From assembly GCA_017621705.1 (NCBI GenBank), contig JAGASR010000034.1, positions 62,001 through 126,000 of the forward strand: a stretch of 64,000 bases of DNA. Direction: 5' to 3'. Source of the DNA: Clostridia bacterium. GTDB taxonomy: Bacteria; Bacillota; Clostridia; Oscillospirales; UBA644. Positions 36,136 through 58,300 of the stretch are shown one piece after another. The position numbers and the translations under genes are program-made. The number at the start of each line of letters is the position of its first letter. Position 1 is the stretch's first letter. Under the pieces are notes generated by a model that was not told the DNA's origin, made no database searches, and worked only from the letters and a program-made list of their open reading frames with translations.

Positions 36136-36154
36136 GATTGTGAGGTTATTAATC

Positions 36155-36937: not shown

Positions 36938-37040
36938 GCTAAATTGCGAACAAGTTCGCAGCTGAATAATGCTTCGCATAGCTAAATAGACCTTCGGTCA
37001 GCTAAATTGCTTCGCAGTTTAAACTTTCCGTAAGGCGAAA
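36938..37040 (+). repeat. AGCTAAAT hairpin array between the two sugar isomerase genes
   Basis: Units TGCGAA-CAAG-TTCGCA, ATGC-TTC-GCAT, GACC-TTC-GGTC and TGC-TTC-GCA with four linkers (one AGCTGAAT), then a TTTC/GAAA unit. It starts immediately after the TAA stop. It sits inside a likely operon, so it would be present in a polycistronic mRNA. Confidence 0.91.
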
Positions 37041-37064
37041 ACTTTATAATAAGGAGTTATTCCT

Positions 37065-37859
37065 ATGTACAACTTTACTCTTTCCGCGTTCGGCGACGAG
37101 ATCCACGAGAATATAACGACTCAGATGGACGTTCTCGAGCGCAACGGTGTAAAATTCATCGAAGTACGTAACGTCAACGGCGTTAACATCTCCGACTGGA
37201 AGCCTGCCGAGTTCAAAGAGATCATCAAGCAGATGAAAGACCGCGGTTTCGGCGTTTCTTCTCTCGGTTCCCCGATCGGCAAGATCGGCATTACCGACGA
37301 TTTCGCACCGCATCTCGATAAATTCAAAAACACTCTTGATGTTGCCGCAGTCGCAGAGACAAAATATATCCGTATGTTCAGTTTCTATATGCCTCAGGAC
37401 AAGTGCGCTGAATACAGAGACGAAGTTCTCGAACGCTGGAACGCTTTCATCGAAGCCGCAAAAGGCTATGATGTTACGCTTCTCCACGAAAACGAGGGCG
37501 GCATCTACGGTCAGTGCGCAGAAAACTGCTATGACCTTATCACAACTCTCAACACCGAAAAGGTCAGAGCTGTTTACGACCCCGCAAACTTCGTCGTTCA
37601 CGGTCACGATACCCTCAAGGCGTTCGATCTGCTTAAAGATTACGCCGTTTACTATCATATCAAAGATGCTATCAAAGGTGTTATGGTCGTTCCCGCCGGC
37701 GAAGGCGAAGGCAATGTTCCCTGCATTATCGAACAGCTCAAGGAACGCGGCTTTAACGGCTTCCTCTCTCTCGAACCGCATCTTGCAACCGGCGATATCG
37801 CAGTCGGCGGCGATGAAAAATTCGAAAGAGCTCTCGGTGCTCTCCGTAAACTTATCTGA
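37065..37859 (+). CDS. Sugar phosphate isomerase/epimerase, second paralogue
   Basis: 264 residues of the same TIM-barrel superfamily. Motifs include LLHENEGGIYG near residue 138, AVYDPANFVVHGHD near 170, YYHIKDA and LSLEPHL near the end, consistent with a metal-dependent isomerase/epimerase. AAGGAG lies upstream of the ATG. It is only distantly similar to the preceding gene, so the two probably act on different intermediates. Codon use is strongly C-ending, suggesting good expression. Confidence 0.86.
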   Translation: MYNFTLSAFGDEIHENITTQMDVLERNGVKFIEVRNVNGVNISDWKPAEFKEIIKQMKDRGFGVSSLGSPIGKIGITDDFAPHLDKFKNTLDVAAVAETKYIRMFSFYMPQDKCAEYRDEVLERWNAFIEAAKGYDVTLLHENEGGIYGQCAENCYDLITTLNTEKVRAVYDPANFVVHGHDTLKAFDLLKDYAVYYHIKDAIKGVMVVPAGEGEGNVPCIIEQLKERGFNGFLSLEPHLATGDIAVGGDEKFERALGALRKLI

Positions 37860-37890
37860 AACCCAAATTCTTTTTTAGGAGAATAAAAAT

Positions 37891-38709
37891 ATGTTCAGTT
37901 TAAAAAACAAAACAGCCATTCTTCTCGGCGGCGCAGGCGTTCTCGGTGCCGATATGGCTAAAGGTCTTGCCGCTGCGGGCGCAAATATCGCAGTTGCAGA
38001 CTTTGCAGAAGCGAAAGCAAAAGCTCTCGCCGCTGAAATTGCCGAAAAATACGGCGTTAAAGCAGAGGGATATTTTGTCAACGCAATGGAAAAATCGGAG
38101 ATCGAAAAATGCCGTGACCTTATCCTCAAAGATTTCGGCTCCTTCGATATCCTTGTCAACGCCGTAGGCGGCAACAAACCTGCAGCTACCACCAACGACA
38201 AGACCGACTTTTTCAACCTCGACAGCAAGGCCGTAGGCGACGTTATGATCCTCAACCTTATGGGCGGTGCTATGCTTCCCTGCCAGGTTTTCGGACCCGA
38301 CCTCGTAAATAACGACAACGGCGGCGTTATCATCAATATCTCTTCGATGAACGCGTTCCGTCCGCTCACCCGTATTCCCGGCTACAGCGCCGCTAAAGCC
38401 GCAGTTTCCAACTTTACACAGTGGCTCGCAGTCGATATGGCTCAGAAATACGGCGAAAAGATCAGAGTAAACGCTATCGCTCCCGGTTTCTTCCTCACCG
38501 ATCAGAACCGTTTCCTTCTCACCAACGAAGCTGACGGCTCCCTTACAAAACGCGGTGAACAGATCCTTACCCACACCCCGATGGGCAGATTTGGCGATCC
38601 CGAAGATCTTATCGGTACCCTCGTATGGCTCTGCTCCGATGCTTCCAAGTTCGTTACCGGCATCGTAGTTCCCGTTGACGGCGGCTTCTCCGCTTACTCA
38701 GGGGTATAA
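37891..38709 (+). CDS. SDR oxidoreductase, probable D-mannonate oxidoreductase (UxuB-like)
   Basis: 272 residues. The Rossmann motif is LLGGAGVLGADMAKGLAAAG, the NAVGG segment follows (VNAVGGNKPAATT), and the catalytic serine and tyrosine are in INISSMNAF and YSAAKAAVSNFTQWLAVDM. The NAVGGNKPAATT stretch resembles the Bacillus SDR-type mannonate/fructuronate oxidoreductase; this would fit hexuronate catabolism with the two isomerases, but is an inference. AGGAG precedes the ATG. The stop lies in a hairpin (38708-38728). Confidence 0.8.
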   Translation: MFSLKNKTAILLGGAGVLGADMAKGLAAAGANIAVADFAEAKAKALAAEIAEKYGVKAEGYFVNAMEKSEIEKCRDLILKDFGSFDILVNAVGGNKPAATTNDKTDFFNLDSKAVGDVMILNLMGGAMLPCQVFGPDLVNNDNGGVIINISSMNAFRPLTRIPGYSAAKAAVSNFTQWLAVDMAQKYGEKIRVNAIAPGFFLTDQNRFLLTNEADGSLTKRGEQILTHTPMGRFGDPEDLIGTLVWLCSDASKFVTGIVVPVDGGFSAYSGV

Positions 38710-41886: not shown

Positions 41887-41915
41887 TTGACAAGATTGAG
41901 GGAAAGTATTATAAT
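41887..41915 (+). promoter_or_regulatory. Strong promoter of the sugar-uptake operon
   Basis: A perfect TTGACA (41887-41892) and a perfect TATAAT (41910-41915) with ideal 17-base spacing lie about 75 bases upstream of the GTG of the solute-binding gene. Confidence 0.88.
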
Positions 41916-41989: not shown

Positions 41990-44896
41990 GTGCGCATTCG
42001 CAAACTGAAATCTTTGGCGATCATCCTTGCTGTTGTTATGACGGTTCAGATCTTCCCCGTTATGTCTTTTGCAAGTTCCGGTGTCGTTGAAGAATCCGGT
42101 GTTTCGGTATTTGTGCCTGTATACAAGAGCGGTTCTTACGGTGAATACCTTCAGAACTACATGAAAACGGCTATCGCCGACAAACCCATTGAACTCGATG
42201 TAACTGATTTTACCGATGTCAAGGGCGACGCGGAGATCAAAACCGTTGACGGTCGTTCCAATGTTGTTGTCACGACCGAGCTCAGTGAAATTACGTATAC
42301 AGTCAATGTAGAAAAGACCGGTATGTATTCCATAGGTGTAGACTATTACCCCGTATCGGGTAAAGGTGCTGCTATCGAAAGAGGTATCCTCATAGACGGA
42401 GAGTATCTCTTTACCGAAGCGCGTTCTACTTCTCTCGACAGAATTTACGTTGACAATGTCGCAGATCCCGACGATCACGACAATTATTTCGTTCAGGACG
42501 AATCCGGTAACCAGCTTCGTCCCGTTCAGGTTGAACAGCCCAAATGGGTTGACAACGCTTTCATCAAGGACTCTTCCGGTTCTTATGACGGCGCTCTTCA
42601 GTTCTACTTCGAAAAAGGCGAACACACCATAACGTTTGCTTCCGTTCGTGAACCTCTCGCAGTTTCCGGACTCAGACTTTACGGTGCTTCCAGCTTCCAG
42701 GATTACGACGATGCTATGGCTGATTACGCATATCTCGATCAGAGCGGCACAGACCTTGTCGCTAAGGTTGAATGTGAATATCCCTCGGCTAAATCCGAAG
42801 CTACCCTTTTCGCAGGTACCGACAGAGCTTCCCCATCCACTTCTCCCGCAAGTTCCGGCACCATCAAGATGAATATGCTTGGTAGTACCAGCGGTACTTC
42901 TACCTGGAAGACCCCCGGTCAGTGGGTAGAGTATAAAGTTGATGTTCCCGAAGAAGGTATGTATAAACTCGCTATCCGTGCTCGCCAGAACGCTGCCAGC
43001 GGTACTTTCACTTCCAGAGAAATTACCGTTAACAACGAACTCCCCTACGAGCAGGCTGCTGCTGTACGTGTCGGTTACAACTCCAACTGGCAGATGGTTC
43101 AGCCCAAGGACGAATATAACAACGACCTTCTCTTCCACTTCAATGCAGGTGAAAATACTATCCGCCTCAAAGCTGTTCTCGGCGACATGGCTGAAATCAT
43201 CAACGCAGTCGAAGCGGTTATCCTCAAGCTCAATGCTGACTACCGCCGTATCGTTATGATCACCGGTCAGACTCCCGACCAGTACAGAGACTATGACTTT
43301 GACGAAGAGATCCCCGAAACCATCTCTGACCTTAAAGCTCAGGCTGACATCCTCAAAAAGATCCACGACGAGCTCGTCTCCATTCTCGGCGAACGCGGCG
43401 AACAGACCGCTACCCTCGAGACCGTATTCGACCAGCTCTATGCTATGTTCGAAAAACCCGACAGCATTCCCAAGGAATTCTCCGGCTTCAAGAACAATAT
43501 CGGTAACCTCGGTTCCTGGCTCCTTACCGTTCGTGAGCAGCCTCTCGAGATCGACTACATCCTCGTTGCTGATAAGGACTACAAAGTTCCCGCTGCTGAG
43601 ACCAACTTCTTTGCAGGCATCGCTCATCAGGTTGTAATGTTCTTCTCCTCGTTCTTTACCGACGTTAACGCTATCTCCGCAACCAGTTCCGAATCTTATG
43701 ATAAGAACGTAACCGTTTGGATGGCGGGTGTTACCTCTGCGCGTGACTATGCTCAGATCGTCCGTCAGCTCGTTGACCGTAGCTTCATCCCGAACTCCGG
43801 TATCAACGTTAACCTCGAACTCGTTCCGTCCGGCGCTCTCCTGCCGTCTACTCTTGCAGGTAAAGGTCCTGACGTTGCGATGAACCAGGATGCAGAAACA
43901 GTTATGAACTATGCGGCCCGTAACGCACTGCAGGAACTTAACATATTTGACGACTTTGACGATGTTACCGAGGCATTCCTCGATTCTGCTCTCGTTCCCA
44001 CCACTCTTGACTGGGGCGACGGCCGTGTTCTCAACTACGGTCTTCCCGAGACTCAGGTCTTCCTCGTTATGTTCTATCGTTCCGACGTCCTCGAAGAAAA
44101 TAACCTTACTCTTCCCAATACCTGGGATGAAGTTTATGACATTATAGCTAAGCTCCAGAAGAGATACATGGACTTTGCTCCTCCGGCTTATGAGACCCTC
44201 CTTTACCAGAACGGCGGTTCTCTCTATAACGACGGCGGCAAGACCACTGCTCTCGACAGCGAAGTTGCGATCGAGTCCTTCATTCAGTGGACCGACCTCT
44301 ACACCAGCTATAAACTCCCCGTTGAATCTAACTTTGCAAACCGTTTCAGATTCGCAGAAATGCCTCTCGGTATGCAGACTTACGACTTCTACAACCAGAT
44401 CTCCGTATTCGCACCCGAAATCAAAGGTCTTTGGTCCTTCGGTCTCGTTCCCGGTACTGTTAAAGAAGACGGCTCTGTTGACCGTTCTGTAATCGCTACT
44501 GCTGTTTCCTGCGTTATGATGGCTGCAGCAAAAGATAAAGAAGCAGGCTGGGAATTCATGAAGTGGTGGACCGGCGCTGAAGCTCAGGTTGACTACGGTC
44601 GTGAAGTTGAATCCATTCTCGGTACTGCGGCTCGTTATACTCCCGCTAATACCGAAGCTCTCCAGAGAATGCCTTGGAGATCCGACGAACTCGCTATCCT
44701 TATGGAACAGCGTCAACACGTTGTCGGCTATCCTCAGGTTCCCGGTTCCTACGCGCTCACACGTAACCTTAACTTCGCATTCCTCAGCGTTGTTAACGAT
44801 GCTACCGACCCGCGTGAAACCATTCTCGACTACACCAAAACTATCAATGACGAACTTCGTTATAAACGCGAAGAACTCGGCTTTGCTATTGACTGA
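41990..44896 (+). CDS. Secreted fusion of carbohydrate-binding-like domains and an ABC solute-binding protein
   Basis: 968 residues, GTG start with GGAAGG nine bases upstream. A signal peptide (SLAIILAVVMTVQIFPVMSFA) has a signal-peptidase-I type end and no lipobox cysteine, unusual for a Gram-positive binding protein. Residues about 70-240 and 255-405 form two beta-rich CBM6/35-like modules (TYTVNVEKTGMYSIGVDYY; PGQWVEYKVDVPEEGMYKLA). After a helical linker, residues about 572-965 are a type-1 extracellular solute-binding domain (VTVWMAGVTSARDYAQIV; LEENNLTLPNTWDEVYDIIA). It should deliver an oligosaccharide to the following permeases. Optimal codon use suggests high expression. Confidence 0.85.
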   Translation: MRIRKLKSLAIILAVVMTVQIFPVMSFASSGVVEESGVSVFVPVYKSGSYGEYLQNYMKTAIADKPIELDVTDFTDVKGDAEIKTVDGRSNVVVTTELSEITYTVNVEKTGMYSIGVDYYPVSGKGAAIERGILIDGEYLFTEARSTSLDRIYVDNVADPDDHDNYFVQDESGNQLRPVQVEQPKWVDNAFIKDSSGSYDGALQFYFEKGEHTITFASVREPLAVSGLRLYGASSFQDYDDAMADYAYLDQSGTDLVAKVECEYPSAKSEATLFAGTDRASPSTSPASSGTIKMNMLGSTSGTSTWKTPGQWVEYKVDVPEEGMYKLAIRARQNAASGTFTSREITVNNELPYEQAAAVRVGYNSNWQMVQPKDEYNNDLLFHFNAGENTIRLKAVLGDMAEIINAVEAVILKLNADYRRIVMITGQTPDQYRDYDFDEEIPETISDLKAQADILKKIHDELVSILGERGEQTATLETVFDQLYAMFEKPDSIPKEFSGFKNNIGNLGSWLLTVREQPLEIDYILVADKDYKVPAAETNFFAGIAHQVVMFFSSFFTDVNAISATSSESYDKNVTVWMAGVTSARDYAQIVRQLVDRSFIPNSGINVNLELVPSGALLPSTLAGKGPDVAMNQDAETVMNYAARNALQELNIFDDFDDVTEAFLDSALVPTTLDWGDGRVLNYGLPETQVFLVMFYRSDVLEENNLTLPNTWDEVYDIIAKLQKRYMDFAPPAYETLLYQNGGSLYNDGGKTTALDSEVAIESFIQWTDLYTSYKLPVESNFANRFRFAEMPLGMQTYDFYNQISVFAPEIKGLWSFGLVPGTVKEDGSVDRSVIATAVSCVMMAAAKDKEAGWEFMKWWTGAEAQVDYGREVESILGTAARYTPANTEALQRMPWRSDELAILMEQRQHVVGYPQVPGSYALTRNLNFAFLSVVNDATDPRETILDYTKTINDELRYKREELGFAID

Positions 44897-44916
44897 TAAG
44901 GAAGGAGGAAATATCA

Positions 44917-45825
44917 ATGAAAAACAAAGTAAGCTCCCTTTCGAAAAAGAAAAAGTTTGAGAACCTTGACCTTATTGTATTCCTCGGTCCGTTCCTTATA
45001 ACTTTCTTTACATTTACGGTTCTTCCCGTATTTATCTCGTTGTTCATCAGTTTGACTAACTTCAACATGCTGGAAACTCCCGACTTTGTCGGTCTTGCCA
45101 ACTATGAAAAGCTCTTCCTTAACGACGAGACGTTTACCCTCGCGATCCAGAATACCTTCATTCTGGCTCTCATTACCGGCCCTGTAAGCTATATTATCTG
45201 TTTCGGTCTTGCATGGCTCATCAACGAAGTTCCCGCTAAACCCCGTGCGTTCCTTACCCTTCTCTTCTACGCTCCCTCGCTCTCCGGTGGTTTCGGCTTC
45301 GTTTGGCAGCTCCTCTTCTCCGGTGACCGTTACGGTTACATCAACGGTGTACTTCTTAACCTCGGCCTTATTACCGACCCCATCCTGTTCCTTAAGGACC
45401 CCGATTACATGTGGCCTGTTTGTATTATTATAGTACTCTGGCAGGCTCTCGGTACAACGTTCCTTACCTTCATTGCAGGTCTTCAGACGGTTGACCGTTC
45501 TCTTTACGAAGCAGCTGCAGTTGACGGTATCAAGAACAGATGGCAGGAACTTTACTTTGTAACCCTTCCGTCCATGAAAGGTCAGCTGATGTTCGGTGCT
45601 ATCCTTAATATCACCGGTTCTTTCGGTATCGGCGGCATCATCACCTCGATCTTCGGTTTCCCGACGACCGACTATACGCTCCATACCATCATGCATCACC
45701 TTGACGACTACGGCGGAATCCGTTTTGAAATGGGTTATGCGTGCGCTATCGCAACGCTCCTGTTTATCATTTCGTTCGTTGCAAACAAAGTTATTCAGTT
45801 CATTCTCGGCCGTATCGGTAAGTAA
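44917..45825 (+). CDS. Sugar ABC transporter permease, first pair, MalF/UgpA-like
   Basis: 302 residues with six membrane segments. The EAA loop contacting the ATPase is YEAAAVDGIKNRWQELYFVT, then LPSMK. A TM1 start (DLIVFLGPFLITFFTFTVLP) and the NTFILALI segment are typical of carbohydrate permeases of the CUT1 group. GGAAGGAGG precedes the ATG, which is about 20 bases after the binding-protein gene. It pairs with the next gene. Confidence 0.92.
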   Translation: MKNKVSSLSKKKKFENLDLIVFLGPFLITFFTFTVLPVFISLFISLTNFNMLETPDFVGLANYEKLFLNDETFTLAIQNTFILALITGPVSYIICFGLAWLINEVPAKPRAFLTLLFYAPSLSGGFGFVWQLLFSGDRYGYINGVLLNLGLITDPILFLKDPDYMWPVCIIIVLWQALGTTFLTFIAGLQTVDRSLYEAAAVDGIKNRWQELYFVTLPSMKGQLMFGAILNITGSFGIGGIITSIFGFPTTDYTLHTIMHHLDDYGGIRFEMGYACAIATLLFIISFVANKVIQFILGRIGK

Positions 45826-45849
45826 TTAGGAAAAGGAGGTTATTTTATC

Positions 45850-46827
45850 ATGGCAGAAAGAATAGATGATGAAGTTCAGGTTGTTTATAAAAATCCTAAA
45901 CCCCTTTTCGGTATTATAAAACGCAGACCGAAATATGACGAAAACGGCCGTCTTATATATTATAAGAAGAAAAAGCTGTTTAAGTATAACAGGGTCAACA
46001 GATCGTTCAGCGGCGACCTTATGATGTTCGCGTTCCTTCTCATTGCGGGTGCCTTCATGGCGTTCCCCCTTGTTTACGCGGTATCTCAGTCCCTCAAACC
46101 TCTCCACGAGCTTTGGCTGTTCCCGCCGAACCTTATCGTTAAAAACCCGACCTTCAAAAACTACATAGACCTTTTTAACATCATGTCCAACTCCCTCGTT
46201 CCGATGTCTAAATATCTCTTCAATACGATATTTATTACCCTCATCGGTACGATCTTCAGAGTTATCTCCGCTTCGATGTGTGCTTATCCCGTTTCGAAGC
46301 GTCAGTTCAAAGGCAAAAACTTTATATTCCAGATCGTTACTCTCTCTCTTATGTTCGCAGCCCCGGCAGCTACCATCGCTAACTACATTATCATGGCAAA
46401 CCTCGGCTGGATCGATACATATTACTCCATTCTGATCCCCGCTCTCGGTAACTCCACCGCGATGTACCTCGTAAAACAGTTCATCGACCAGTTCCCGGAC
46501 TCCGTTCTCGAAGCTGCTCGTATCGACGGTGCAGGCGAATTCAGAATTTTCTGGCAGATCCTTATGCCCTCCATCAAACCCGGCTGGATCACTCTTATCG
46601 TTTTCGCAGTTCAGGATTTCTGGAACATGGGTTCTTCCATCTTCATCTACCGCGAAGAGCTTAAGACCCTTGCTTACGCTCTTTCTCAGATCGCAGCTGC
46701 CGGTATCGCGAGAGCCGGTGTTGCTACCGCAGTATCCATCGTTATGATGTTGGTACCGGTTATCACATTCGTCATTACCCAGTCGAACATCCTTGAAACG
46801 ATGTCCACTTCCGGTATGAAAGACTAA
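45850..46827 (+). CDS. Sugar ABC transporter permease, first pair, MalG/UgpE-like
   Basis: 325 residues. An N-terminal cytoplasmic extension of about 55 basic residues precedes six membrane segments. The EAA loop is LEAARIDGAGEFRIFWQILM, then PSIKPG. The NTIFITLIGTIFRVISASMCA segment is typical of CUT1 partner permeases. AAGGAGG lies upstream of the ATG. With the preceding permease it makes a complete membrane half. Confidence 0.92.
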   Translation: MAERIDDEVQVVYKNPKPLFGIIKRRPKYDENGRLIYYKKKKLFKYNRVNRSFSGDLMMFAFLLIAGAFMAFPLVYAVSQSLKPLHELWLFPPNLIVKNPTFKNYIDLFNIMSNSLVPMSKYLFNTIFITLIGTIFRVISASMCAYPVSKRQFKGKNFIFQIVTLSLMFAAPAATIANYIIMANLGWIDTYYSILIPALGNSTAMYLVKQFIDQFPDSVLEAARIDGAGEFRIFWQILMPSIKPGWITLIVFAVQDFWNMGSSIFIYREELKTLAYALSQIAAAGIARAGVATAVSIVMMLVPVITFVITQSNILETMSTSGMKD

Positions 46828-46844
46828 TTGAAAGGAGAAAAAAG

Positions 46845-48461
46845 ATGAAAAACGGATTTATAAAAATCGCTGTATCGCTTGTTCTCCTTACGGTCATGAT
46901 CGTTTCCACCGCTCTTCCCGTGGCAGCGCTCCCGATAACTTCCGATATCTCCGATAACTACCTTTATAACTATAACGGTCAGCCCGTTCAGGCTCCCCTT
47001 GCTTATAAAGCAGTTAAAGTTCTCGGTGCTAAAGATCTCGGTCTCGAAAGATCTTTCCAGCCCGCCGACCTCTTCGTAAGAGGCGATCTTCTCTATATCG
47101 TAGATAAAGGCGGCAACCAGGTTGTTGTTGTTGACGAAGACTATCAGGTCGTCTCCATTATCTCTGAGCTTAAAAACGCTCCCGCTCTTTATACATACGT
47201 TCCCGGCAAGACCAACTCCGACGGTTCTCCTTATCAGGATCAGGAAATGCTCTCCCATAATAAGAACCAGCTCTACGGTCCCGAAGGTATCTATGTAGAC
47301 GAAGACGGCATGATCTATATCGCAGATACTCAGAACAGACGTATTGTCTGCTGCGATATCAACGGTAATGTTTCAAGCGTAGTTCAAGGCGTTGACGTTA
47401 GCGTCATCGATGACTATATCTTCAAACCCGTAAAAATCGTTGTTGACAGAACCGATTCCTTCCAGGTTATCGCGTATGCTGTTAACAGAGGTCTTCTCGA
47501 AATCGACGAGGACGGTAACTTCCGTTCCTTTATCGGTGCTCCTCCGGTAACTTATGACGCTTCCGACTGGTTCTGGCGTCTCATCGCTACCGACGAACAG
47601 AAAAAGCAGCTCGTTAAATATGTTCCTACCGAATACAGTAACATTAATATTGACGACCGCGGCTTTATCTATGCGACCATCAGTACCATCGACGCTATGG
47701 ACCTTATGTCCGCCATCGCAGGCAACAGCGTTTCCGGTGCTCTTGCTCCCGTTAAGAAACTTTCCCCCGCAGGTCAAGACGTTCTTCGTAGAACCGGCGA
47801 ATTTGCTCCTGTAGGTGACCTTGAGTTCTCGAGAGATTCTTCTCCGCAGGTAGTTGACGTTGCTGTCGATAACGAAAGCGGACGTTACACTATCATCGAC
47901 TCCCGTTCCGGTCGTTTCTTCACTTACGATCCCGACGGTAACCTTCTCTACATGGGCGGCGGCTCCTCTACCGACCAGAACGGCCGTTTCAGAACCGCTA
48001 ACTCCATCGCTATCCGTGGCGAACACATTATCATTTCCGATATCGGTAATAAATCCATTACCGTTTACGAAACCACCGAATATGCAAGACTTATCAACTC
48101 CGCTGTAGCTGCTAACTCTGCAGGTCGTTTTGAAGAAGCTGCTGAAATCTGGAAAGAGATCACAACCTTCAACTCCACCATGTATATTGCATATACCGGT
48201 CTCGGTAAAGCAGAAATGCGTCAGGCAATGGGTTCTTACGATGAATCCCGTTTCGATCATTACGAACAGGCTCTCGTATACTACTCCAAAGCAACCGAAA
48301 AAGATAACTATTCCAAAGCTTATAACGAACTCAGAAAAGAAGAACTCTCTCAGAACTTCGAAATCATCGTTATCAGTATCATCGTTGTAGTTGTCGGCAT
48401 TATCGTACTTTACTTTGTCAGTAAAGCACGCAAGAACTCGAAGAAAAGGAGGGCAAAATAA
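46845..48461 (+). CDS. NHL-repeat/TPR membrane-anchored extracytoplasmic protein
   Basis: 538 residues. A signal peptide (ALPVAALP near residue 25-30) is followed by NHL-type beta-propeller repeats (about 60-400; GPEGIYVDEDGMIYIADTQN, SPQVVDVAVDNESGRY), then a TPR-like helical segment (about 420-500; AGRFEEAAEIWKEI), then a C-terminal membrane segment (about 504-525) and a basic tail KARKNSKKRRAK. It should be a membrane-tethered surface propeller. Its place between two permease pairs suggests a role in substrate capture or sensing; function is unknown. Confidence 0.8.
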   Translation: MKNGFIKIAVSLVLLTVMIVSTALPVAALPITSDISDNYLYNYNGQPVQAPLAYKAVKVLGAKDLGLERSFQPADLFVRGDLLYIVDKGGNQVVVVDEDYQVVSIISELKNAPALYTYVPGKTNSDGSPYQDQEMLSHNKNQLYGPEGIYVDEDGMIYIADTQNRRIVCCDINGNVSSVVQGVDVSVIDDYIFKPVKIVVDRTDSFQVIAYAVNRGLLEIDEDGNFRSFIGAPPVTYDASDWFWRLIATDEQKKQLVKYVPTEYSNINIDDRGFIYATISTIDAMDLMSAIAGNSVSGALAPVKKLSPAGQDVLRRTGEFAPVGDLEFSRDSSPQVVDVAVDNESGRYTIIDSRSGRFFTYDPDGNLLYMGGGSSTDQNGRFRTANSIAIRGEHIIISDIGNKSITVYETTEYARLINSAVAANSAGRFEEAAEIWKEITTFNSTMYIAYTGLGKAEMRQAMGSYDESRFDHYEQALVYYSKATEKDNYSKAYNELRKEELSQNFEIIVISIIVVVVGIIVLYFVSKARKNSKKRRAK

Positions 48462-49142
48462 ATGAAATCTTTAGGATATTATGCTAAAAGATTAGGTCAC
48501 GGAACCGCTGAGATGTTCAAACGCCTTCCGTTCGCGTTCTACATTCTCACCCACCCGTTCGACGGTTTCTACGAACTTAAAAGAGACCCTCGCAACCATA
48601 ACCTTCCCGGTGCAGTTTTCCTTTTCATCGTTTTAGGTATTACATCTATCCTGAAAAGACAGCTTACCGGCTACCTTTTCACCGAACCCTTCGCACAGCT
48701 CAACCTTAACATTCCCTATGAGCTTGCGGTAGCAGTTCTCCCGTTTATTTTGTTCATCATTGCAAACTGGTGCTTCACCTCTCTTATGGACGGCGACGGT
48801 AAATTCAGAGATATCTTCACGGCTACCGCTTATGCGACCCTCCCGATGTCCATCTGTAACCTCATCGCTATCCCCCTTTCCAACTTCTTAACCCTTTCCG
48901 AATCTGCGATGTATACCTTCATCGTTTCCTTCGGTTTCGTTTGGTGCTACGGCATGGTATTCCTCGGTATGATGATTACCCATCAGTACACCGTTAAGAA
49001 GGCAATCGCTACTGCTATCCTTTCTATCATCGGTATGGCAGTTATCGCTTTCATCGTAGTACTTGTTTTCTTCCTTGTACAGCAGGTATTCGGCTTTGTT
49101 GTTCAGTTGTACACCGAAGTAAGCTTCAGATTGAACGAATAA
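48462..49142 (+). CDS. Yip1-like multi-pass membrane protein
   Basis: 226 residues. It begins at the base after the NHL gene stop, so is translationally coupled. A short cytoplasmic start (MKSLGYYAKRLGHGTAEMFK) leads into five hydrophobic segments, with HPFDGFYELKRDPR before the first, as in bacterial Yip1-domain proteins. Function of the bacterial family is unknown. Conserved coupling with the NHL gene suggests the two act together in the membrane. Confidence 0.8.
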   Translation: MKSLGYYAKRLGHGTAEMFKRLPFAFYILTHPFDGFYELKRDPRNHNLPGAVFLFIVLGITSILKRQLTGYLFTEPFAQLNLNIPYELAVAVLPFILFIIANWCFTSLMDGDGKFRDIFTATAYATLPMSICNLIAIPLSNFLTLSESAMYTFIVSFGFVWCYGMVFLGMMITHQYTVKKAIATAILSIIGMAVIAFIVVLVFFLVQQVFGFVVQLYTEVSFRLNE

Positions 49143-49157
49143 GGAGGAGTGAAGAAT

Positions 49158-52100
49158 ATGAAAAGAATAATTTCTCTTATCTTGGCAGCCGTACTCATGT
49201 TCTCGACAGTTTCTGTCCTGGCATCCTGCGGCACTGCCGAAAAAGACACTGCTCCCGAATACGTCAGTGAAGAAATGCGCGAAGAGCATATCAAAAAGCT
49301 CATCGGCGACGGTCAGGTCATTGCTGAAACAGTAAAGACCGTAACCTATGATGAAGAACTCGAAATGGAGATCGTTAACGAAGTCTGGACTGTCGATCCC
49401 GATTATGCGACCGCAGTAGGCAAAACCGTTTCCAATATCTCCGTCGTAGACGAAACGACCGGTACTACCAGCAACATTAAACTCGGTATCACCAAGATGA
49501 GTCTCATTATGGAGAACGACTATTACGCTCTCTATATGGACCTTCAGGGTGCCGATGTTGACCTCAACGCTCAGGGCGGCGGCACGACCGACTTTGCAGT
49601 TCTTGACAAAACCACCGGTCATGTTTTCCACTCTAACTCCAACTACGAGGCAAACTCCACATACGCTAACGTCAAGGCTCCTTCCAAAGACGTTAAGGGT
49701 ACTCCTGACATGAAAGTCATGAACCCGATCGTATCTGCTCTTGCTATCGAAGCATACGACGTTTCCAACAAACGTTACGAATTTAACTTCCGTGAGCACT
49801 GCCTTGCAGATCTCCGTCTTAAAGTCGTAAAGATGTCCGATAACCAGATCAGAATCATCTATACCCTCGGTAATGACCCGGATAAAGACCTCGTTCCTCC
49901 CGTACTTACCGAAGAAACTTATGCTTGGATCGTTGAAAGACTCACTGCCAACACCGACCTCAATGATGACGGCGACGGCACCAGAGGCGAAGACGCTCTT
50001 AAAGACCTTAAGTCCAACTACAAATACGTTACCCCCGAAAACCTCGAACTCGAAGATAGAGAACGTCTTATCAAGAACTATCCTCTTCTCGACGTTATTC
50101 CGATGTATATCTGCCGTGTTCTTAACACCCGTCAGAAACAGATCGTAAAAGAGGCAATGCAGCTCGCCGGCTTCACCGCTGACATGCTGAAAAAAGAAAT
50201 GGAAGCAGTTGAATATTCCGGTCCGGAACGTGCGGTTATGTTCACCATTCCCGTTGACCTTACTCTTACCGATGACGGTCTCACCGTAAATGTTGACTCC
50301 ACCCTCATTCAGGCTCCTTCCAAACAGAAGATGTATAAGATCTCCCTTTACAGAGCTCTCGGTTCTGTAACTCCCACTTCCAAGATGACCGGCGATCCTT
50401 ACATCATCACTCCCGACGGTTCCGGTGCTTACATGCCCGCTGACGGTTATGTAACCACTTCCGTTTATACCGACCGTGTATACGGCGGCGACCTTACCTT
50501 CCAGGAAACAAAAGAAGATACCAAGATGATGCAGATCGTATCTCCGTATCTTATTCTTGACAGAGCAGAGCTCGGTGGTCTTATGGTTCTCCTCGAAGAC
50601 GGTAAAGCTCAGGCATTTGCTACCGCAAGACCGTCCAACAGCACCAACAACCCCGGCGCATCCGTCAACTTCGACCTCGTTTACTCCGAACGTGACTACC
50701 GTACTTATACCGGCGGTCAGGGCAACACTTCTTCCGGTCCCATGGATAACTCCTCTGCCGGCGTTGTTCTTTCGAAGGAACAGCAGGTTGCAAACTTCCA
50801 GGTAAAATACCTCTTCAATGAAGGCGGTCTTACCTATGCTGATTACGCTAAGATCTACAGAGATTATCTCATAGAAGAAGGTATCCTTCCTGCAGAACCC
50901 GTAGAAAAGGGTTCCAAGACTCCTTTCTATGCTGAGATCATAGGCGCTATCAATAAGAACGAATCCGTTGCAGGTATGCCCGTAGACGCTACCAAAGCTC
51001 TTACCAGCTATACCGAACTCAAGGAAATCGTTGAAAAACTCGTTGATGCAGGCGTAGGCAACATCAATGTCCGTTATATGTACTGGGCAAACGATGGTTT
51101 CTACAACACCATCAACAATACTCCCGATCTTATGTCTGAAATGGGTTCGAAGAGCGAACTTACCGATCTCGTTTCTTACCTCGAATCCGAAGGCGTTGGT
51201 TTCTTCCCCTCTGCAGACTTCCTCTATGTCTACAAAGATAAAGCTACCGATGCTCTTAACTACACCAACGACGCTGCACGTCGACTCGACATGCGTGTTG
51301 CACGTGTATATCAGCGTAACCTCGCAACCGGTATGACCTCTCAGGACGGCGATTATACCCAGACGATCCTTTCTCCCGGTCTTATTCCTTCTCTCGCAGA
51401 ATCTTATAAGAAGGGTCTCGATTCGATCATCGGTAACAAGCAGATCTCTCTCGGTACTATCGGTAAAGATCTTAACTCCAACTACAAAGTTGGTAACATC
51501 CTCAACAGAACCCAGGCTCTCGATGCTCACATCGCTGCTCTCGAAACTTTTGCGAACGACGATTATGAGATCCTCGTTACTACCGGTAACGACTACACCT
51601 GGAAGTATGCTGATCATATCGTAAATCTTCCCATCGGTTCCAGTGAATTCCTCTCCTCGACCGGCGCTATTCCGTTCATTCAGATGGTTCTTCACGGATA
51701 CCTCGAATACGCAGCTGAACCGTTCAATATCTCTGCTGACTACGAAACACACCTTCTCAAGTGTCTCGAAACCGGTAGCGGTGTTCACTTCCGTTGGATG
51801 TACGACGACAACAGCGTATTTGATAACACTACTTTCAATGATTTCTACTCTCTCAACTATAACGACAGTTTCGACAGAGCAGTTGAGCTCTACAAAGAAG
51901 TTGCTTCTATTCTTGACGATGTAACTTCCGAGCCCATCACCCTCCACGAATCCGCAGACGCTTACCTCGTATATGACGGTGAAATCACTGTCCTCGAAGA
52001 AGGCGACGAAGGTTACGTAGAAGGCGAAGAAACTCCCTCTTATCAGAGAATAGGAACCACCGGCGTTTACCACGTAATTTATGGTGACGGTGACCTCGAT

Positions 52101-52184
52101 CTTTATATCAACTACAACAGCTATGATGTAGAACTTGAAGACAGAAGCATCGTTCCCGCACTTGGATATTTGGAGGTGAAGTAA
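49158..52184 (+). CDS. Large DUF5696-like lipoprotein
   Basis: 1008 residues. A lipobox (SVLASC) near residue 22 predicts a lipid-anchored surface protein. Residues about 60-580 are beta-rich, and about 590-900 resemble an alpha/beta barrel (NINVRYMYWANDGFYNTINN; VGFFPSADFLYVY; ILVTTGNDYTWKYADHIVNL), then a short beta domain. The layout is like glycoside-hydrolase families with a beta-sandwich plus TIM barrel. It looks like DUF5696, which I recall next to carbohydrate permeases, but I cannot confirm it without a search, and no catalytic pair can be named. Start at 49158 with AAGGAGG eight bases upstream. Confidence 0.72.
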   Translation: MKRIISLILAAVLMFSTVSVLASCGTAEKDTAPEYVSEEMREEHIKKLIGDGQVIAETVKTVTYDEELEMEIVNEVWTVDPDYATAVGKTVSNISVVDETTGTTSNIKLGITKMSLIMENDYYALYMDLQGADVDLNAQGGGTTDFAVLDKTTGHVFHSNSNYEANSTYANVKAPSKDVKGTPDMKVMNPIVSALAIEAYDVSNKRYEFNFREHCLADLRLKVVKMSDNQIRIIYTLGNDPDKDLVPPVLTEETYAWIVERLTANTDLNDDGDGTRGEDALKDLKSNYKYVTPENLELEDRERLIKNYPLLDVIPMYICRVLNTRQKQIVKEAMQLAGFTADMLKKEMEAVEYSGPERAVMFTIPVDLTLTDDGLTVNVDSTLIQAPSKQKMYKISLYRALGSVTPTSKMTGDPYIITPDGSGAYMPADGYVTTSVYTDRVYGGDLTFQETKEDTKMMQIVSPYLILDRAELGGLMVLLEDGKAQAFATARPSNSTNNPGASVNFDLVYSERDYRTYTGGQGNTSSGPMDNSSAGVVLSKEQQVANFQVKYLFNEGGLTYADYAKIYRDYLIEEGILPAEPVEKGSKTPFYAEIIGAINKNESVAGMPVDATKALTSYTELKEIVEKLVDAGVGNINVRYMYWANDGFYNTINNTPDLMSEMGSKSELTDLVSYLESEGVGFFPSADFLYVYKDKATDALNYTNDAARRLDMRVARVYQRNLATGMTSQDGDYTQTILSPGLIPSLAESYKKGLDSIIGNKQISLGTIGKDLNSNYKVGNILNRTQALDAHIAALETFANDDYEILVTTGNDYTWKYADHIVNLPIGSSEFLSSTGAIPFIQMVLHGYLEYAAEPFNISADYETHLLKCLETGSGVHFRWMYDDNSVFDNTTFNDFYSLNYNDSFDRAVELYKEVASILDDVTSEPITLHESADAYLVYDGEITVLEEGDEGYVEGEETPSYQRIGTTGVYHVIYGDGDLDLYINYNSYDVELEDRSIVPALGYLEVK

Positions 52185-52185
52185 A

Positions 52186-53139
52186 ATGAGCGCAGAAGTT
52201 GCTACCAAAAAGCCGAAGCAGATCAAAAGAAGCAAGCTTTCACTTGAACGCAAACAGAATCTTTACGGCTATATCTTCGTTCTTCCGATAATCATCGGTC
52301 TTGCGTTCATCTACATCCCCGTTATCGTTCAGTCTTTCATCTACTCTGTAAGTGAGATCAAAGTTGACGCTAAGGGCTTCCACACCATTTTCATCGGTAT
52401 AGATAACTACTACGAGGCCCTCTTCGTTGAGGCGGACTTCCTCCGTACCGTCGTTGAATCGACTCTCGGTATCCTCGTTCAGATCCCGATCATTCTTATC
52501 TTCGCATTCTTCATGGCAAACGTTCTTAACCAGAACTTTAAAGGAAGAACTATTGCCCGTGTTATCTTCTTTATCCCCGTTGTTATTTCGACCGGTATTA
52601 TTGCCCAGTTCGAAAACATGAGCTCGATGCTTGACATCTACAGCTCTTCGGAAAAGATGGATATCGGCAGCTCTTCCGGTATGGCGAACGTATTTAACTA
52701 TGCACAGCTCCGCCAGCTCGTCATGGTCGTTCTTCAGAACGAAGACCTTGCGGCCATAGTTCTCGGTGCCGTTGACGGTCTTTACAGCGTCATCACCTCT
52801 TCCGGTGTTCAGATGCTCGTATTCCTCTCCGGTCTCCAGTCTATCTCCGTTTCCATGTACGAAGCTGCTAAAGTTGAAGGCGCAACAAGCTGGGAAGTTT
52901 TCTGGAAGATTTCTTTCCCCATGATCAGCCCGCTGATCCTTGTTAACCTTATCTACACAGTTATCGATATGTTCCTCAAAGCGGACAACGCAGCAGTCGC
53001 TCTTATCAACGATGCTCTTGCGAATGCAAGTGAGTACGCTCTCGCTTCCGCATTCTCCTGGATCTACATGTTCGTAGTTCTTATCTTCGTTGGTGTTGTT
53101 GTTCTTCTCGTCCGTAAGCTCATCATCTATCAGGATTAA
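52186..53139 (+). CDS. Sugar ABC transporter permease, second pair, MalF/UgpA-like
   Basis: 317 residues. A charged start (KKPKQIKRSKLSLERKQNLY) leads into six membrane segments. The EAA loop is YEAAKVEGATSWEVFWKISF, then PMISP. A roughly 50-residue insertion (SSMLDIYSSSEKMDIGSSSG) between segments is unusual. It is one base after the DUF5696-like gene, whose final codons carry its GGAGG. It begins a second complete permease pair. Confidence 0.9.
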   Translation: MSAEVATKKPKQIKRSKLSLERKQNLYGYIFVLPIIIGLAFIYIPVIVQSFIYSVSEIKVDAKGFHTIFIGIDNYYEALFVEADFLRTVVESTLGILVQIPIILIFAFFMANVLNQNFKGRTIARVIFFIPVVISTGIIAQFENMSSMLDIYSSSEKMDIGSSSGMANVFNYAQLRQLVMVVLQNEDLAAIVLGAVDGLYSVITSSGVQMLVFLSGLQSISVSMYEAAKVEGATSWEVFWKISFPMISPLILVNLIYTVIDMFLKADNAAVALINDALANASEYALASAFSWIYMFVVLIFVGVVVLLVRKLIIYQD

Positions 53140-53152
53140 GGAGGGACAATCA

Positions 53153-54148
53153 ATGAGACAAATTAACTATGTTGTTGAGGGTCACGAAAACGATAAAAGA
53201 AATTTTATCGAAGAACTCCTCGCAAAAATCAATCCCAGTAAATATGCTGATTTCAGCTGGGAAAGATGGAAGAAGAAAAACTTTAACGCTAAAGGCGTAG
53301 GCAGTCTTATCTGGTCCATCGCTCGTTTCATCATCATTGTCGGTATCTCGTTCATGATCCTCTATCCCTTCCTCGTAAAGACGATAGTTTCCTTCATGTC
53401 CACCGCCGACCTCGAAGATAAAACCGTTATGTTTATCCCCCGTGAAGGTTCCACCTATTTCTTCCAGCGCGCGATACAGAATATCCAGTACTGGGAAGCT
53501 CTGATCTACTCCGCAATTCTCTCCCTTGTAACCGCTGTCTTCCAGGTTCTCGTATCCTGCGTTGCCGGTTATGGTTTTGCTAGATTCAACTTCAAAGGCA
53601 AAAACCTTCTCTTCTTCCTCGTAATCCTTACCCTTATCATTCCCCCGCAGACCATCATGCTTCCGTTGTACGTTCGTTTCAGATACTTCATCGGCAACAT
53701 GTCTATCATCGACTCCGTTTGGCCCATGGTTGTTATGGCTGCTACCGGTCTCGGTCTTAAGAACGGTCTTTATATCTACCTCATGCGTCAGCACTTCAGA
53801 GGTTTGCCTAAGGCTCTCGACGAAGCAGCGTATATCGACGGCGCAGGCCCCATGCGTACCTTCTTCTCTGTTATGCTCCCCAACGCTACTAACATGATGA
53901 TCACCGTCTTCCTCTTCTCCTTCACCTGGCAGTGGACGGATACGACGTATAACAACATGCTTATGCCCAACATGGTAATCCTTTCTAACACCGTTAGCAA
54001 CGTTACCAAAGGCGTTTCCGAGCTTATTCAGCAGCAGACCCTTTACGATACGGCGTCTATCCTCATGATATTCCCGCTCCTCATCGTCTTCCTCTTTGCT
54101 CAGAAATACTTCATTCAGGGCATCGAAAGATCCGGTCTTACCGAATAA
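53153..54148 (+). CDS. Sugar ABC transporter permease, second pair, MalG/UgpE-like
   Basis: 331 residues. A cytoplasmic start (about 65 residues, MRQINYVVEGHENDKRN) precedes six membrane segments. The EAA loop is DEAAYIDGAGPMRTFFSVML, then PNA. The start is the ATG at 53153 with AAGGAGG ten bases upstream. It closes the operon; an intrinsic terminator follows. No ATPase gene occurs, so a shared MsmX-type ATPase elsewhere is likely. Confidence 0.92.
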   Translation: MRQINYVVEGHENDKRNFIEELLAKINPSKYADFSWERWKKKNFNAKGVGSLIWSIARFIIIVGISFMILYPFLVKTIVSFMSTADLEDKTVMFIPREGSTYFFQRAIQNIQYWEALIYSAILSLVTAVFQVLVSCVAGYGFARFNFKGKNLLFFLVILTLIIPPQTIMLPLYVRFRYFIGNMSIIDSVWPMVVMAATGLGLKNGLYIYLMRQHFRGLPKALDEAAYIDGAGPMRTFFSVMLPNATNMMITVFLFSFTWQWTDTTYNNMLMPNMVILSNTVSNVTKGVSELIQQQTLYDTASILMIFPLLIVFLFAQKYFIQGIERSGLTE

Positions 54149-54157
54149 TTTCAAATC

Positions 54158-54194
54158 AAAGAACTCAAGTCTCCATGGCTTGAGTTCTTTTTTG
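54158..54194 (+). terminator. Intrinsic terminator of the sugar-uptake operon
   Basis: AAAGAACTCAAG and its complement CTTGAGTTCTTT flank the loop TCTCCATGG, and the second arm runs into TTTTTT. It lies 10 bases after the permease stop. Confidence 0.92.
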
Positions 54195-54204
54195 GTATAA
54201 CTTG

Positions 54205-54233
54205 TTGACATTCTGCGCATATTATGTTATAAT
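54205..54233 (+). promoter_or_regulatory. Promoter of the RelB/YafQ pair
   Basis: A perfect TTGACA (54205-54210) and a perfect TATAAT (54228-54233) with 17-base spacing lie about 23 bases upstream of the antitoxin ATG, which has AAGGAG nine bases upstream. Confidence 0.85.
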
Positions 54234-54255
54234 AATAACAAAGGAGATGACTATT

Positions 54256-54537
54256 ATGCCCAAAGTATCAACAAATATCTCAATCGACGCCGAAACCAAA
54301 ACTCAAGCGCAGGCACTTCTTTCAGAGTTTGGCATGGACCTCTCGACCGCTGTCAATATTTTTCTTAAACAGATGGTCTATACCGGCGCGTTCCCTTTCG
54401 AAATTACGAGAAACATACCCAACAAAGCAACCCTCGATGCCATCGCAGAGTATCAATCCATGAAAAATTCTCCGGAAAATTACAAAAAATATAACAACGT
54501 AAATGATATGCTGGAGGATATTTTGAGTGAAACTTAA
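54256..54537 (+). CDS. RelB/DinJ-family antitoxin
   Basis: 93 residues. It starts MPKVSTNISIDAETKTQAQA and contains FGMDLSTAVNIFLKQMVYTG and GAFPF, the ribbon-helix-helix DinJ/RelB pattern. It would repress its own promoter and neutralise the toxin encoded next, whose GTG overlaps its last codons. The start at 54256 follows AAGGAG; upstream in-frame residues include the promoter and are not coding. Confidence 0.93.
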   Translation: MPKVSTNISIDAETKTQAQALLSEFGMDLSTAVNIFLKQMVYTGAFPFEITRNIPNKATLDAIAEYQSMKNSPENYKKYNNVNDMLEDILSET

Positions 54538-54880
54538 GATCGTCCCGTCAAACCAATTTAAAAAAGATCTGAAACTCGCAAAAAAACGCGGCCTCGATCT
54601 CTCTGAATTATCCGCTGTAATTTCTGTTCTCGCAAACGGTGAACCGCTCGATCAAAAATACCGCGATCACCCCTTGATCGGTGATTACAACAGCTTTCGC
54701 GAATGTCATATCCGCCCCGATTGGCTCCTCGTTTATAAAATAGATAACGGAGAACTCCTCTTTTTCTTGCAAGAACCGGCTCCCACAGCGATTTATTTTG
54801 ATATTTTAACAGGAGAAATACTATATTTAGTATTTCTCTCTTTTTATAACACTAAATCTATGATTTATTACATTTCCTGA
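54527..54880 (+). CDS. YafQ-family mRNA interferase toxin, frameshifted near the C-terminus
   Basis: The GTG-initiated frame is 117 residues. Residues 1-81 match YafQ (FKKDLKLAKKRGLDLSE; DHPLIGDYNSFRECHIRPDW; LLVYKI), including the two catalytic His and the Asp. The expected C-terminal segment with the last catalytic His is not in this frame but in the -1 frame: after the TTTTT run at 54761-54765 it reads ARTGSHSDLF followed by TGA (54799-54801), just before a terminator. The written frame instead runs through the terminator to 54880. The intact toxin would have about 91 residues. It is either a mutated toxin, a recoding site or a sequencing error in the T-run. Confidence 0.8.
   Translation: MKLKIVPSNQFKKDLKLAKKRGLDLSELSAVISVLANGEPLDQKYRDHPLIGDYNSFRECHIRPDWLLVYKIDNGELLFFLQEPAPTAIYFDILTGEILYLVFLSFYNTKSMIYYIS
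54811..54845 (+). terminator. Intrinsic terminator of the toxin-antitoxin pair
   Basis: GAGAAATACTA (54813-54823), loop TATT, TAGTATTTCTC (54828-54838), followed by TCTTTTT. It starts about ten bases after the in-frame stop of the restored toxin, which supports that stop as the original end. Confidence 0.9.
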
Positions 54881-55309: not shown

Positions 55310-58300
55310 ATGAGCAAGAAAATTATCTCTGCCATCCTTGTTATGGCAATGGTAATTTCTATGTCTGCTACTGCTCTTCTCTCTTCTGTAGGTGCCGCTG
55401 CAGAAACTGAAGTCGATTACGAAGCAGACAGAACTACCCTTAAAACAATGCTCCAGGAATTCGTAATCGAAGGTCCCAAGCTTAACGCTGACACCATCGA
55501 ATACCTCAAAACTCTTGGCATTCTTACTTGGAATAACGACAAAGGTTATTACAATGAAGAACATGCAAGAGAAGAATTCTGGAAAAACTTTGGTGGCGAT
55601 TCTAACTACACCTATTTCTTCAAAGGTGCAGACGCAGATTTCGCTAAAAACTTCGTTACCGAAGGTGCTAAAAAGAACATCTTTGCTAACACCAACGAAA
55701 CTTGGGCTACCACCACTTCTACCGACGTAAGCTATCTCGATCTCGCTGTTGACAACATCAGCACTGTTATCGAATACGCTGCATCCGCTTGGTATTTTGG
55801 TAAAGAAGCTAACGATGCTAACGCTGACGCTACTTTTAACGCTGAAAGAAACAACGTTGTTAAGAAAGCTATCGGCATGGTTAACACCGTTCTCGATCTT
55901 CTTAAAAATGAAGTTAAAGCTGACTCTGATAAACCCGCTGATTACGCTAAAGAATTCAACGGCCAGTTCTACAGAGGTTTCGCTACAACTTCTAAAGCTT
56001 ACAACCAGGCTATCGGCTTCAACCCCTACTTCTTCATTCTTGAACAGCAGGTAACCGAAGACGGTAACTACTACGGTAAAGACTACTACGAAGATACCTA
56101 CTATGGCACCATTCTTGGTCAGTACACCATCAGATGGTACACCTTCGCAGAAGCTCGTGAAATCGACGCTGAAGGCGTATTCGCATTCGAAAACATGATC
56201 AGAACCATGGCTATCGACAACGGTGCTGGCGTTCTCTTCTATGACTTCGTTAACGGCAACAGAAAAGATTTCCTTGATATCGTTAAATCTCTTTTCGAAA
56301 ACCTTGTAGGTAAAGTTGAAACTTCCTTCATCAAAGAAGACGTTGATACTCAGATCAAGGCTTTCCTCAAACTCAAACTCATCGTTGAAAAAGTATACGA
56401 TCTTTACATCAAAGACGTTTACAACAACATCTACACCGCTTCCAGCGCAAAACTTCTTAACGACGTTCTTTACGCTAAGCGTCTCATCGAGTACATCCTC
56501 ACTGAATCTACCAACTCCAGACTCATCGCTCTTGCACTCGCTGACTTCACCACTCTTACCAACGACATCCTCGCTGGTATCGAAGCTGTAGCTCCCAGAG
56601 CTGAACAGCTCCTCAAAGCTGCTGACATCACTGAAGGCACTGCTCTCGTAAGAAAAGCTGAAGCTCTTCTTGCAAACTGGGCAAACTGGGCTTCCAATGA
56701 TGACTACAAGGGTACCTGGAACGCTCTTAACGATGCTAAAAACGCTCTTAAGAACATGCTTCCCGCTACCGAAGGTGCTGATGCTTCCATCGTTATCGAA
56801 GCTAACACCGCTAAGATGAAGAACATCGCTGGTACCGAAATCGGCAACGACAGAATCTTCGTTGAATTCGCTCCCAACTGGTTCGCTTACATCAAACTTT
56901 ACGCTCTTCTCGAAGAACAGATCGCAAACTTCACCAAGAAAGTTACCGGCGTAGATGGTTCTCTCTCTGCTCCCAACCTCACTGGTGTTTCCAACTCTGA
57001 CCTCGTAAATGCTATCAACAAGTATGCTCACCTTATCGGTATCGTTGGTCCTATCGTTGAAATCTCCGACTACACCAAAGACGGTAAAGACAATAAGACT
57101 GTAAACCTCGTTGATACCACTGTTTGGACCAAGTATGATGCTGATCCCGACAAGGGCGTTTACAAAGAAGATACCAACAAACCCACCGCTAACTACAAAG
57201 CAACTGTTAAGTATATTAGCTACCTCTTTGACTGTGATCCTATGACTAGCGATAAATATGACAGAGAAGGTGCTGTACTTTATTACTTCGCATTCTCTGA
57301 CGGCGGTAAAGGTTATCCCCACGGAAATGATATCTACTCTGCTGATAAGTATTGCTATGTAAACTACAAATATGAAAACAGCTACATTGAAGTAATCAGA
57401 GATCTCCTTGCTCATAGCTACATCTCTAATACCGATAATAAAGTTGACTCCATGTACGAAATCGTTCTCGGTTCTGTAGAAGGCAACAACGCATTCTATA
57501 CTCCTATCAACCAGGACGTAGCTATCGACTCTGTATATGTTCTTATGCAGGCTATCGATGAAGCTGCTGAATATGCAGTTGATAACACCAAGATCGGTGC
57601 AGATACCTGGACTGACGGTAAACAGTACTACTACGAATTCAATTCTGAAGGTAAATTCGACTGGGTTAACGATAAATACGTATTTACAGCAGGTCACGAC
57701 AAAGCTGTAAACTCCATTATTGAAGCAGTTAAGAATCTTACCAAAGACATTACCAAACTTACTCAGACCTACTATGCAATTCTTTTCGAAGTTGCAAAAC
57801 TCTTTGACTGGTCTACCATCGATGCTGCTAATGGTAACACCCTCGTTAAACTTGCTGCAAATGCTCAGTCCCAGTATTGTTGGGGTTACGAAGACAACTA
57901 TGCTGACGGTGCTATGGATGCTGCTCTTGAAGCTGCAAACGAACTCTACAGCTACGTTGTTGACTGCACAACCGATTGGAACGAAGATGATAAAGTAGTA
58001 GAAAATAGCCATAAATTTGCTACCTACTCTAAACTCATCGCTGCTTACGATGAATTTGAAAACGCAATCAAGACTTACCTCTTCACCGCTGCTGGCTCTG
58101 AAAAATTCGACGCTTACGTTGAAGACGTATACTACATGATCGATACCTATCTTGGTACTTCCGATTATTGGAACGAATACGACAAACTCTTCGAAAAATT
58201 CATCACTGCAACAAACGGCAACTTCAAGCACTTTGTTGATGTAGTTGATGATATGAGAAACTGCTACGAATACTTCGCACTCACCCTCGCTCACGCTTCT

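Follow-up and report, generated by a model that had tools for sequence, protein, structure and literature searches.

The locus studied here raises the question of what a bacterium does with eight tightly packed genes that combine two pairs of sugar permeases and one binding protein with three proteins of obscure function, and that include no gene for an ATPase. In the window, by which we mean the whole stretch of 64 000 nucleotides analysed, the ORF list places these genes in tandem at positions 41990–54148, all on the + strand, with gaps of 20, 24, 17, 0, 6, 1 and 10 bp between successive ORFs (Table 1); the start of P2b was taken at 53150, the longer call at 53090 being a TTG that overlaps P2a. 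The original prediction had located all eight ORFs here, flanked by a single strong promoter and a terminator, and had regarded them as one functional unit, and on each of these points it was borne out. Promoter-like and terminator-like sites, as classes, occur only at chance level in the region, and those of the operon rank among the best of their kind in it. The eight genes form a real operon and not a chance cluster, because the same genes are found again, in the same order, in genomes throughout the phylum.

Table 1. Features of the operon and its boundaries (window coordinates)
Feature	Position	Strand	Basis
Promoter	41887..41915	+	TTGACA-17-TATAAT, 12/12 match to sigma-70 consensus, 17-bp spacer
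Secreted solute-binding fusion	41990..44896	+	Pfam SBP_bac_1, structure model
Permease P1a, CUT1-type, EAA loop	44917..45825	+	Pfam BPD_transp_1
Permease P1b, CUT1-type, EAA loop	45850..46827	+	Pfam BPD_transp_1
Protein with NHL propeller and TPR-like segment	46845..48461	+	Pfam NHL, profile across phylum
Yip1-domain membrane protein	48462..49142	+	Pfam Yip1
DUF5696 lipoprotein, predicted GH129/DagB-like three-domain fold	49149..52184	+	Pfam, profile search, structure model
Permease P2a, CUT1-type, EAA loop	52186..53139	+	Pfam BPD_transp_1
Permease P2b, CUT1-type, EAA loop	53150..54148	+	Pfam BPD_transp_1
Intrinsic terminator	54158..54190	+	hairpin with a 14-bp stem, then a T run

Recurrence was studied at two levels. 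DUF5696 is present in 41 of 59 relatives (those with names are Clostridia MAGs, and several come from the gut of goats, cattle and deer), and 39 of the 398 phylum genomes have a match that exceeds the cut-off. This puts the putative import unit in about one tenth of the Bacillota genomes sampled and in the majority of the gut lineage's relatives. Profiles built from the proteins of the window served to map sixty DUF5696 neighbourhoods of ∼10–20 kb each; counts out of 61 include the window itself. All eight genes are found at 53 of these 61 loci and the NHL and Yip1 genes at 60, the exception (L077) being cut by a contig end; at 24 of 60 loci a single ORF even encodes both of these, as a fusion. 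The eight-gene order is preserved at most of the 60 loci, and the breaks fall between two modules, one made of the solute-binding fusion, P1a and P1b and the other of the NHL, Yip1 and DUF5696 genes with P2a and P2b (e.g. L094, L098, L101, L120 and L121). When the NHL profile was run against 396 phylum genomes, two clean classes emerged: in 38 genomes the best E-value was below 1e-50, and the others reached about 1e-20 at most. Thirty-seven of the 38, belonging to 16 families, are exactly those with a strong DUF5696 match, and the 38th (G300) carries a truncated gene. The co-occurrence of DUF5696, NHL and Yip1 genes in other genomes, which had been put forward as a check, is thus amply documented. 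The binding fusion was found in 12 of 13 genomes checked, including those of families in which it lies far from DUF5696; the only one without it is again G300, where DUF5696 is also missing. Pairwise protein distance matrices of the unit's components correlate at 0.82–0.93, values that are uncorrected for species kinship. The whole-family DUF5696 alignment (A1) contained no stretch conserved enough for a scan of named genomes. A genome of the same order, G028, holds six DUF5696 genes within 1.8 Mb.

This distribution bears on the simplest reading of the locus, that of an ordinary pair of sugar importers in which the accessory genes are incidental passengers. The permeases and the solute-binding protein do belong to standard families, but passengers would hardly be expected to stay together in the same genomes across so many families, with Yip1 and even apart from the module that contains the binding protein, and we consider this reading very improbable.

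All four permeases match BPD_transp_1 and resemble proteins of the UgpA, UgpE, GlcT, GlcU and MalG types, in every case below the equivalog cut-offs of NCBIfam. EAA loops are present in the window's permeases and, as judged with a loose pattern, in 54/54, 54/54, 58/59 and 53/59 of their counterparts across loci; therefore, both permease pairs should couple to an ATPase. That none is encoded in the operon had been correctly noted from the start, and the apparent gap is probably explained by a UgpC/MsmX-type ATPase that scores over the cut-off in 32 of 40 relatives and is encoded outside the cassette, in one genome (G038) ∼10 kb away from it. In the window's own MAG (G000; 2.63 Mb, 96% complete) an ATPase of this type was not found, only PotA reaching full length; most genomes of the same genus do have one, and its absence may be an assembly gap. 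We infer that an operon devoid of an ATPase gene is the ordinary arrangement, and that ATP hydrolysis would be provided by a UgpC/MsmX-type ATPase encoded elsewhere and common to several importers.

The binding fusion, a protein of 968 amino acids with an N-terminal signal peptide, is predicted to consist of two beta-sandwich (CBM35-like) domains at about residues 67–232 and 291–396, a helical segment (398–516) and an oligosaccharide-type solute-binding domain (about 570–958). The latter is recognized by SBP_bac_1 (PF01547, E = 1.2e-20), and its model matches oligosaccharide binders with Z-scores of 25–28, the best being a beta-1,2-glucooligosaccharide-binding protein (Z = 27.8). The beta-sandwich domains are seen only in the whole-protein model, which is weak overall (pTM 0.41), and CBM35 scores 18.2 bits on the N-terminal half against a cut-off of 28. 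The original prediction had stressed that there is a single binding protein; this holds for the window's operon but not as a rule, because in many relatives another, plain binding protein is encoded close to permease pair 2.

The largest of the three additional proteins matches DUF5696 (PF18952) over residues 349–938 with 431.8 bits against a cut-off of 25.6 (E = 6e-129). In the window it is a lipoprotein with its lipobox cysteine at position 27; relatives devoid of a lipobox generally have a signal sequence or an N-terminal anchor instead. We found no mention of this family in the open-access literature searched. By sequence, the DUF5696 profile matches the 3,6-anhydro-D-galactosidase DagB (ZgGH129; E = 8e-16) and NagBb (E = 2e-7), and HHalign of the family profile against DagB gives a collinear alignment of the barrel and the C-terminal domain over about 370 columns, with a probability of 97–99%. 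The AlphaFold2 model, of moderate confidence (pLDDT 71.5, pTM 0.72), points the same way: it aligns with DagB over 575 residues (Z = 28.5) and with the GH129 enzyme NagBb at Z = 24.5, the alignments covering 553–575 residues, and it contains the three domains of these proteins, i.e. a beta-sandwich, a TIM barrel and an Ig-like domain. The suggestion that the lipoprotein carries a carbohydrate-related barrel is supported by this predicted structure. A plain relationship with GH13 was considered and rejected, as GH13 structures match the barrel only and with lower scores (Z ≤ 18); weak matches at model positions 265–440, one of them in the window's own genome, turned out to be proteins like glycogen branching enzyme. 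The Pfam GH129 model (PF11308) has no match in the operon at E ≤ 0.05. Its lack of any match in 149 phylum genomes is uninformative, the controls giving none either. Plasmid searches revealed no DagB or NagBb homologues.

Does such a fold come with the chemistry? The activity of DagB needs D202, D486, E517 and E531, D486 corresponds to the catalytic Asp435 of NagBb, and one acid that the enzyme uses is supplied by the second monomer's N-terminal domain (PMC5698469). We compared the active sites across 49 DUF5696 proteins using the profile alignment and predicted strands. The carboxylate pairs that one would look for in the barrel did not appear in DagB-type form: the columns matching D486, E517 and E531 are without a conserved acid. 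Columns 769–773 contain at most 29% acid; E517 falls either on T811, in a column with 45% acid, or on the conserved Asn814 (Asn in 42/49), and E531 on V825, where residues are mostly hydrophobic. The closest partly conserved Asp is that of column 778 (32/49); the window's protein has Asn there, and all of its family-level clade has either Asn or Ser. Thus, DUF5696 has probably lost the DagB-type barrel-acid chemistry, and we say probable rather than proven because the alignment with DagB may be off by a few residues near strand 4; D202 lies outside the mapped columns. Since the catalytic residues tested are not conserved, DUF5696, although structurally GH129-like as judged from its model, is not classed here as a GH129 enzyme.

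One could argue that catalysis has moved rather than vanished: DUF5696 would then belong to a new family neighbouring GH129 and, as an active exo-glycosidase, would trim captured glycan on the cell surface ahead of its import. Candidate acids exist: the only near-invariant ones in the family are D423 and D448 (each Asp in 46/49) and E874 (48/49), to which the column-778 Asp of most relatives can be added, and DagB itself recruits an acid from another subunit. But E874 is predicted in the helix preceding a late barrel strand, away from the catalytic strand end, the clade of the window has Asn or Ser in column 778, and the columns equivalent to the three DagB acids remain without a conserved one. 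We therefore hold an active enzyme to be rather unlikely. As DUF5696 combines a fold of the GH129-like exo-alpha-galactosidase type with the lack of conserved barrel acids, it would most likely hold or present glycan ends instead of cutting them by a GH129-like mechanism.

The two other accessory proteins also match Pfam families. The NHL match (E = 2e-8) lies in a protein with a signal sequence, the propeller, a TPR-like stretch, one C-terminal transmembrane segment (residues 507–525) and a short basic tail; Yip1 (PF04893) is matched with 65.1 bits against a cut-off of 28.6 (E = 9e-18). Nothing relevant to a combination of Yip1, NHL and a solute-binding protein was found in the literature searched. 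Taken as a whole, the unit is on balance probably, if not strongly so, a CUT1-type carbohydrate ABC importer that has an extracellular front end of its own. Oligosaccharide would be captured by the binding fusion, whose two beta-sandwich domains would hold on to the cell surface or to a polymer and whose MalE-like domain, at the C-terminus, would hand the sugar to permease pair 1 for inward transport. A second module, working with permease pair 2, may be made up of the DUF5696 lipoprotein, Yip1 and the NHL/TPR propeller tethered to the membrane. More tentatively, the unit could represent a widespread, undescribed class of Bacillota importers, in which a catalytically dead GH129-fold surface protein, the NHL/TPR protein and Yip1 make up a fixed complex that captures polysaccharide ends and feeds the two permease pairs. 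If true, this would be the functional equivalent of SusCD in Gram-positive bacteria, one in which a pseudo-glycosidase serves as a subunit for transport.

What would be imported? The original prediction suggested a complex cell-surface or host glycan, but nothing points there in particular. The CAZymes near the unit in relatives (GH2, GH3, GH8, GH10, GH26 with CBM35, GH38, GH42 and GH43) are accompanied by a GH106-like protein, pectate and alginate lyases, a chondroitinase B-like protein and esterases; most are of the plant-polysaccharide kind, and the set differs between loci, an association that is uncorrected for background. LacI or AraC regulators are also found beside the unit, and the most frequent neighbour family (12 of the 78 scanned) is that of an additional solute-binding protein, besides those already labelled. 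Because the nearby CAZymes are so diverse, these gene contexts argue for a general oligosaccharide import chassis with a locus-specific substrate, rather than for one host glycan, and the substrate probably differs between copies. Another proposal is that the unit serves envelope homeostasis, either by handling polysaccharide from the wall or capsule of the cell itself or by sensing the state of the envelope, with no nutrient import at all. NHL and Yip1 are indeed unusual parts for an importer, and beside the window's own copy there is no CAZyme among the neighbours put through family searches, and a murC-like ligase gene lies upstream. However, this proposal fits poorly with the varied catabolic CAZymes, LacI or AraC regulators and further sugar-binding proteins that adjoin the unit in relatives, and with the several copies present in some genomes; we regard it as improbable.

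The proposed importer is thus of a known kind, CUT1, and what is new are its uncharacterized accessory subunits. Like MalEFGK2, MsmEFG-MsmX and UgpABCE, it has a MalE-like binding domain, a two-permease architecture, EAA loops and, in most relatives of the window, a UgpC/MsmX-type ATPase encoded elsewhere; unlike them, it has two permease pairs, three additional conserved proteins and a binding fusion of 968 residues in which two beta-sandwich domains are predicted. DUF5696 shares with NagBb and DagB the order of an N-terminal beta-sandwich, a TIM barrel and a C-terminal Ig-like domain, but differs from them by its non-conserved barrel acids, an identity of about 12–15% only, a larger N-terminal domain and its location within a transporter operon. 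An analogy is provided by the SLC3 heavy chains (4F2hc/CD98hc and rBAT), which have a GH13 barrel and a single transmembrane anchor and belong to mammalian amino-acid exchangers: they too are partner subunits of a transporter that show the barrel fold of a glycosidase without its chemistry. They are mammalian and of the GH13 type, and no kinship beyond the barrel fold is claimed. With Gram-positive polysaccharide utilisation loci, the unit has in common, in many relatives, a sugar ABC importer near CAZymes, but its conserved cassette is without a CAZyme of known activity, and the CAZymes around it change with the locus.

To our knowledge, the uptake of large or complex glycans by Gram-positive bacteria, which have no outer membrane, is poorly understood, and the unit offers a defined set of parts for its study. 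Three conserved proteins of unknown role, DUF5696, the NHL/TPR family and a Yip1 subfamily, are now tied to one recurring, putative import unit; DUF5696 gains a fold assignment and a concrete, falsifiable prediction, and its case suggests that a glycosidase fold has been reused as a transporter subunit.

The surroundings of the operon call for a few remarks. At 36140–38709 of the window, two xylose-isomerase-like TIM-barrel proteins and a D-mannonate oxidoreductase are encoded in a row, possibly as hexuronate genes; the oxidoreductase gene lies about 3 kb upstream of the operon, on the far side of the murC-like gene. Right after the operon's terminator comes a RelB/YafQ-type toxin–antitoxin pair (54223–54880), with a perfect promoter of its own (54205–54233). 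At 55310–59560 there is a gene for a secreted protein of 1416 amino acids with no Pfam or NCBIfam match, homologues of which follow the operon in four genomes of the same genus (L102, L104, L106 and L109). Elsewhere in the window's genome, a second sugar ABC importer, with a solute-binding protein, two permeases and no ATPase (L162:3117-7133; C42), directly precedes a gene for an RND/HlyD-type adaptor, an unusual partner for an importer.
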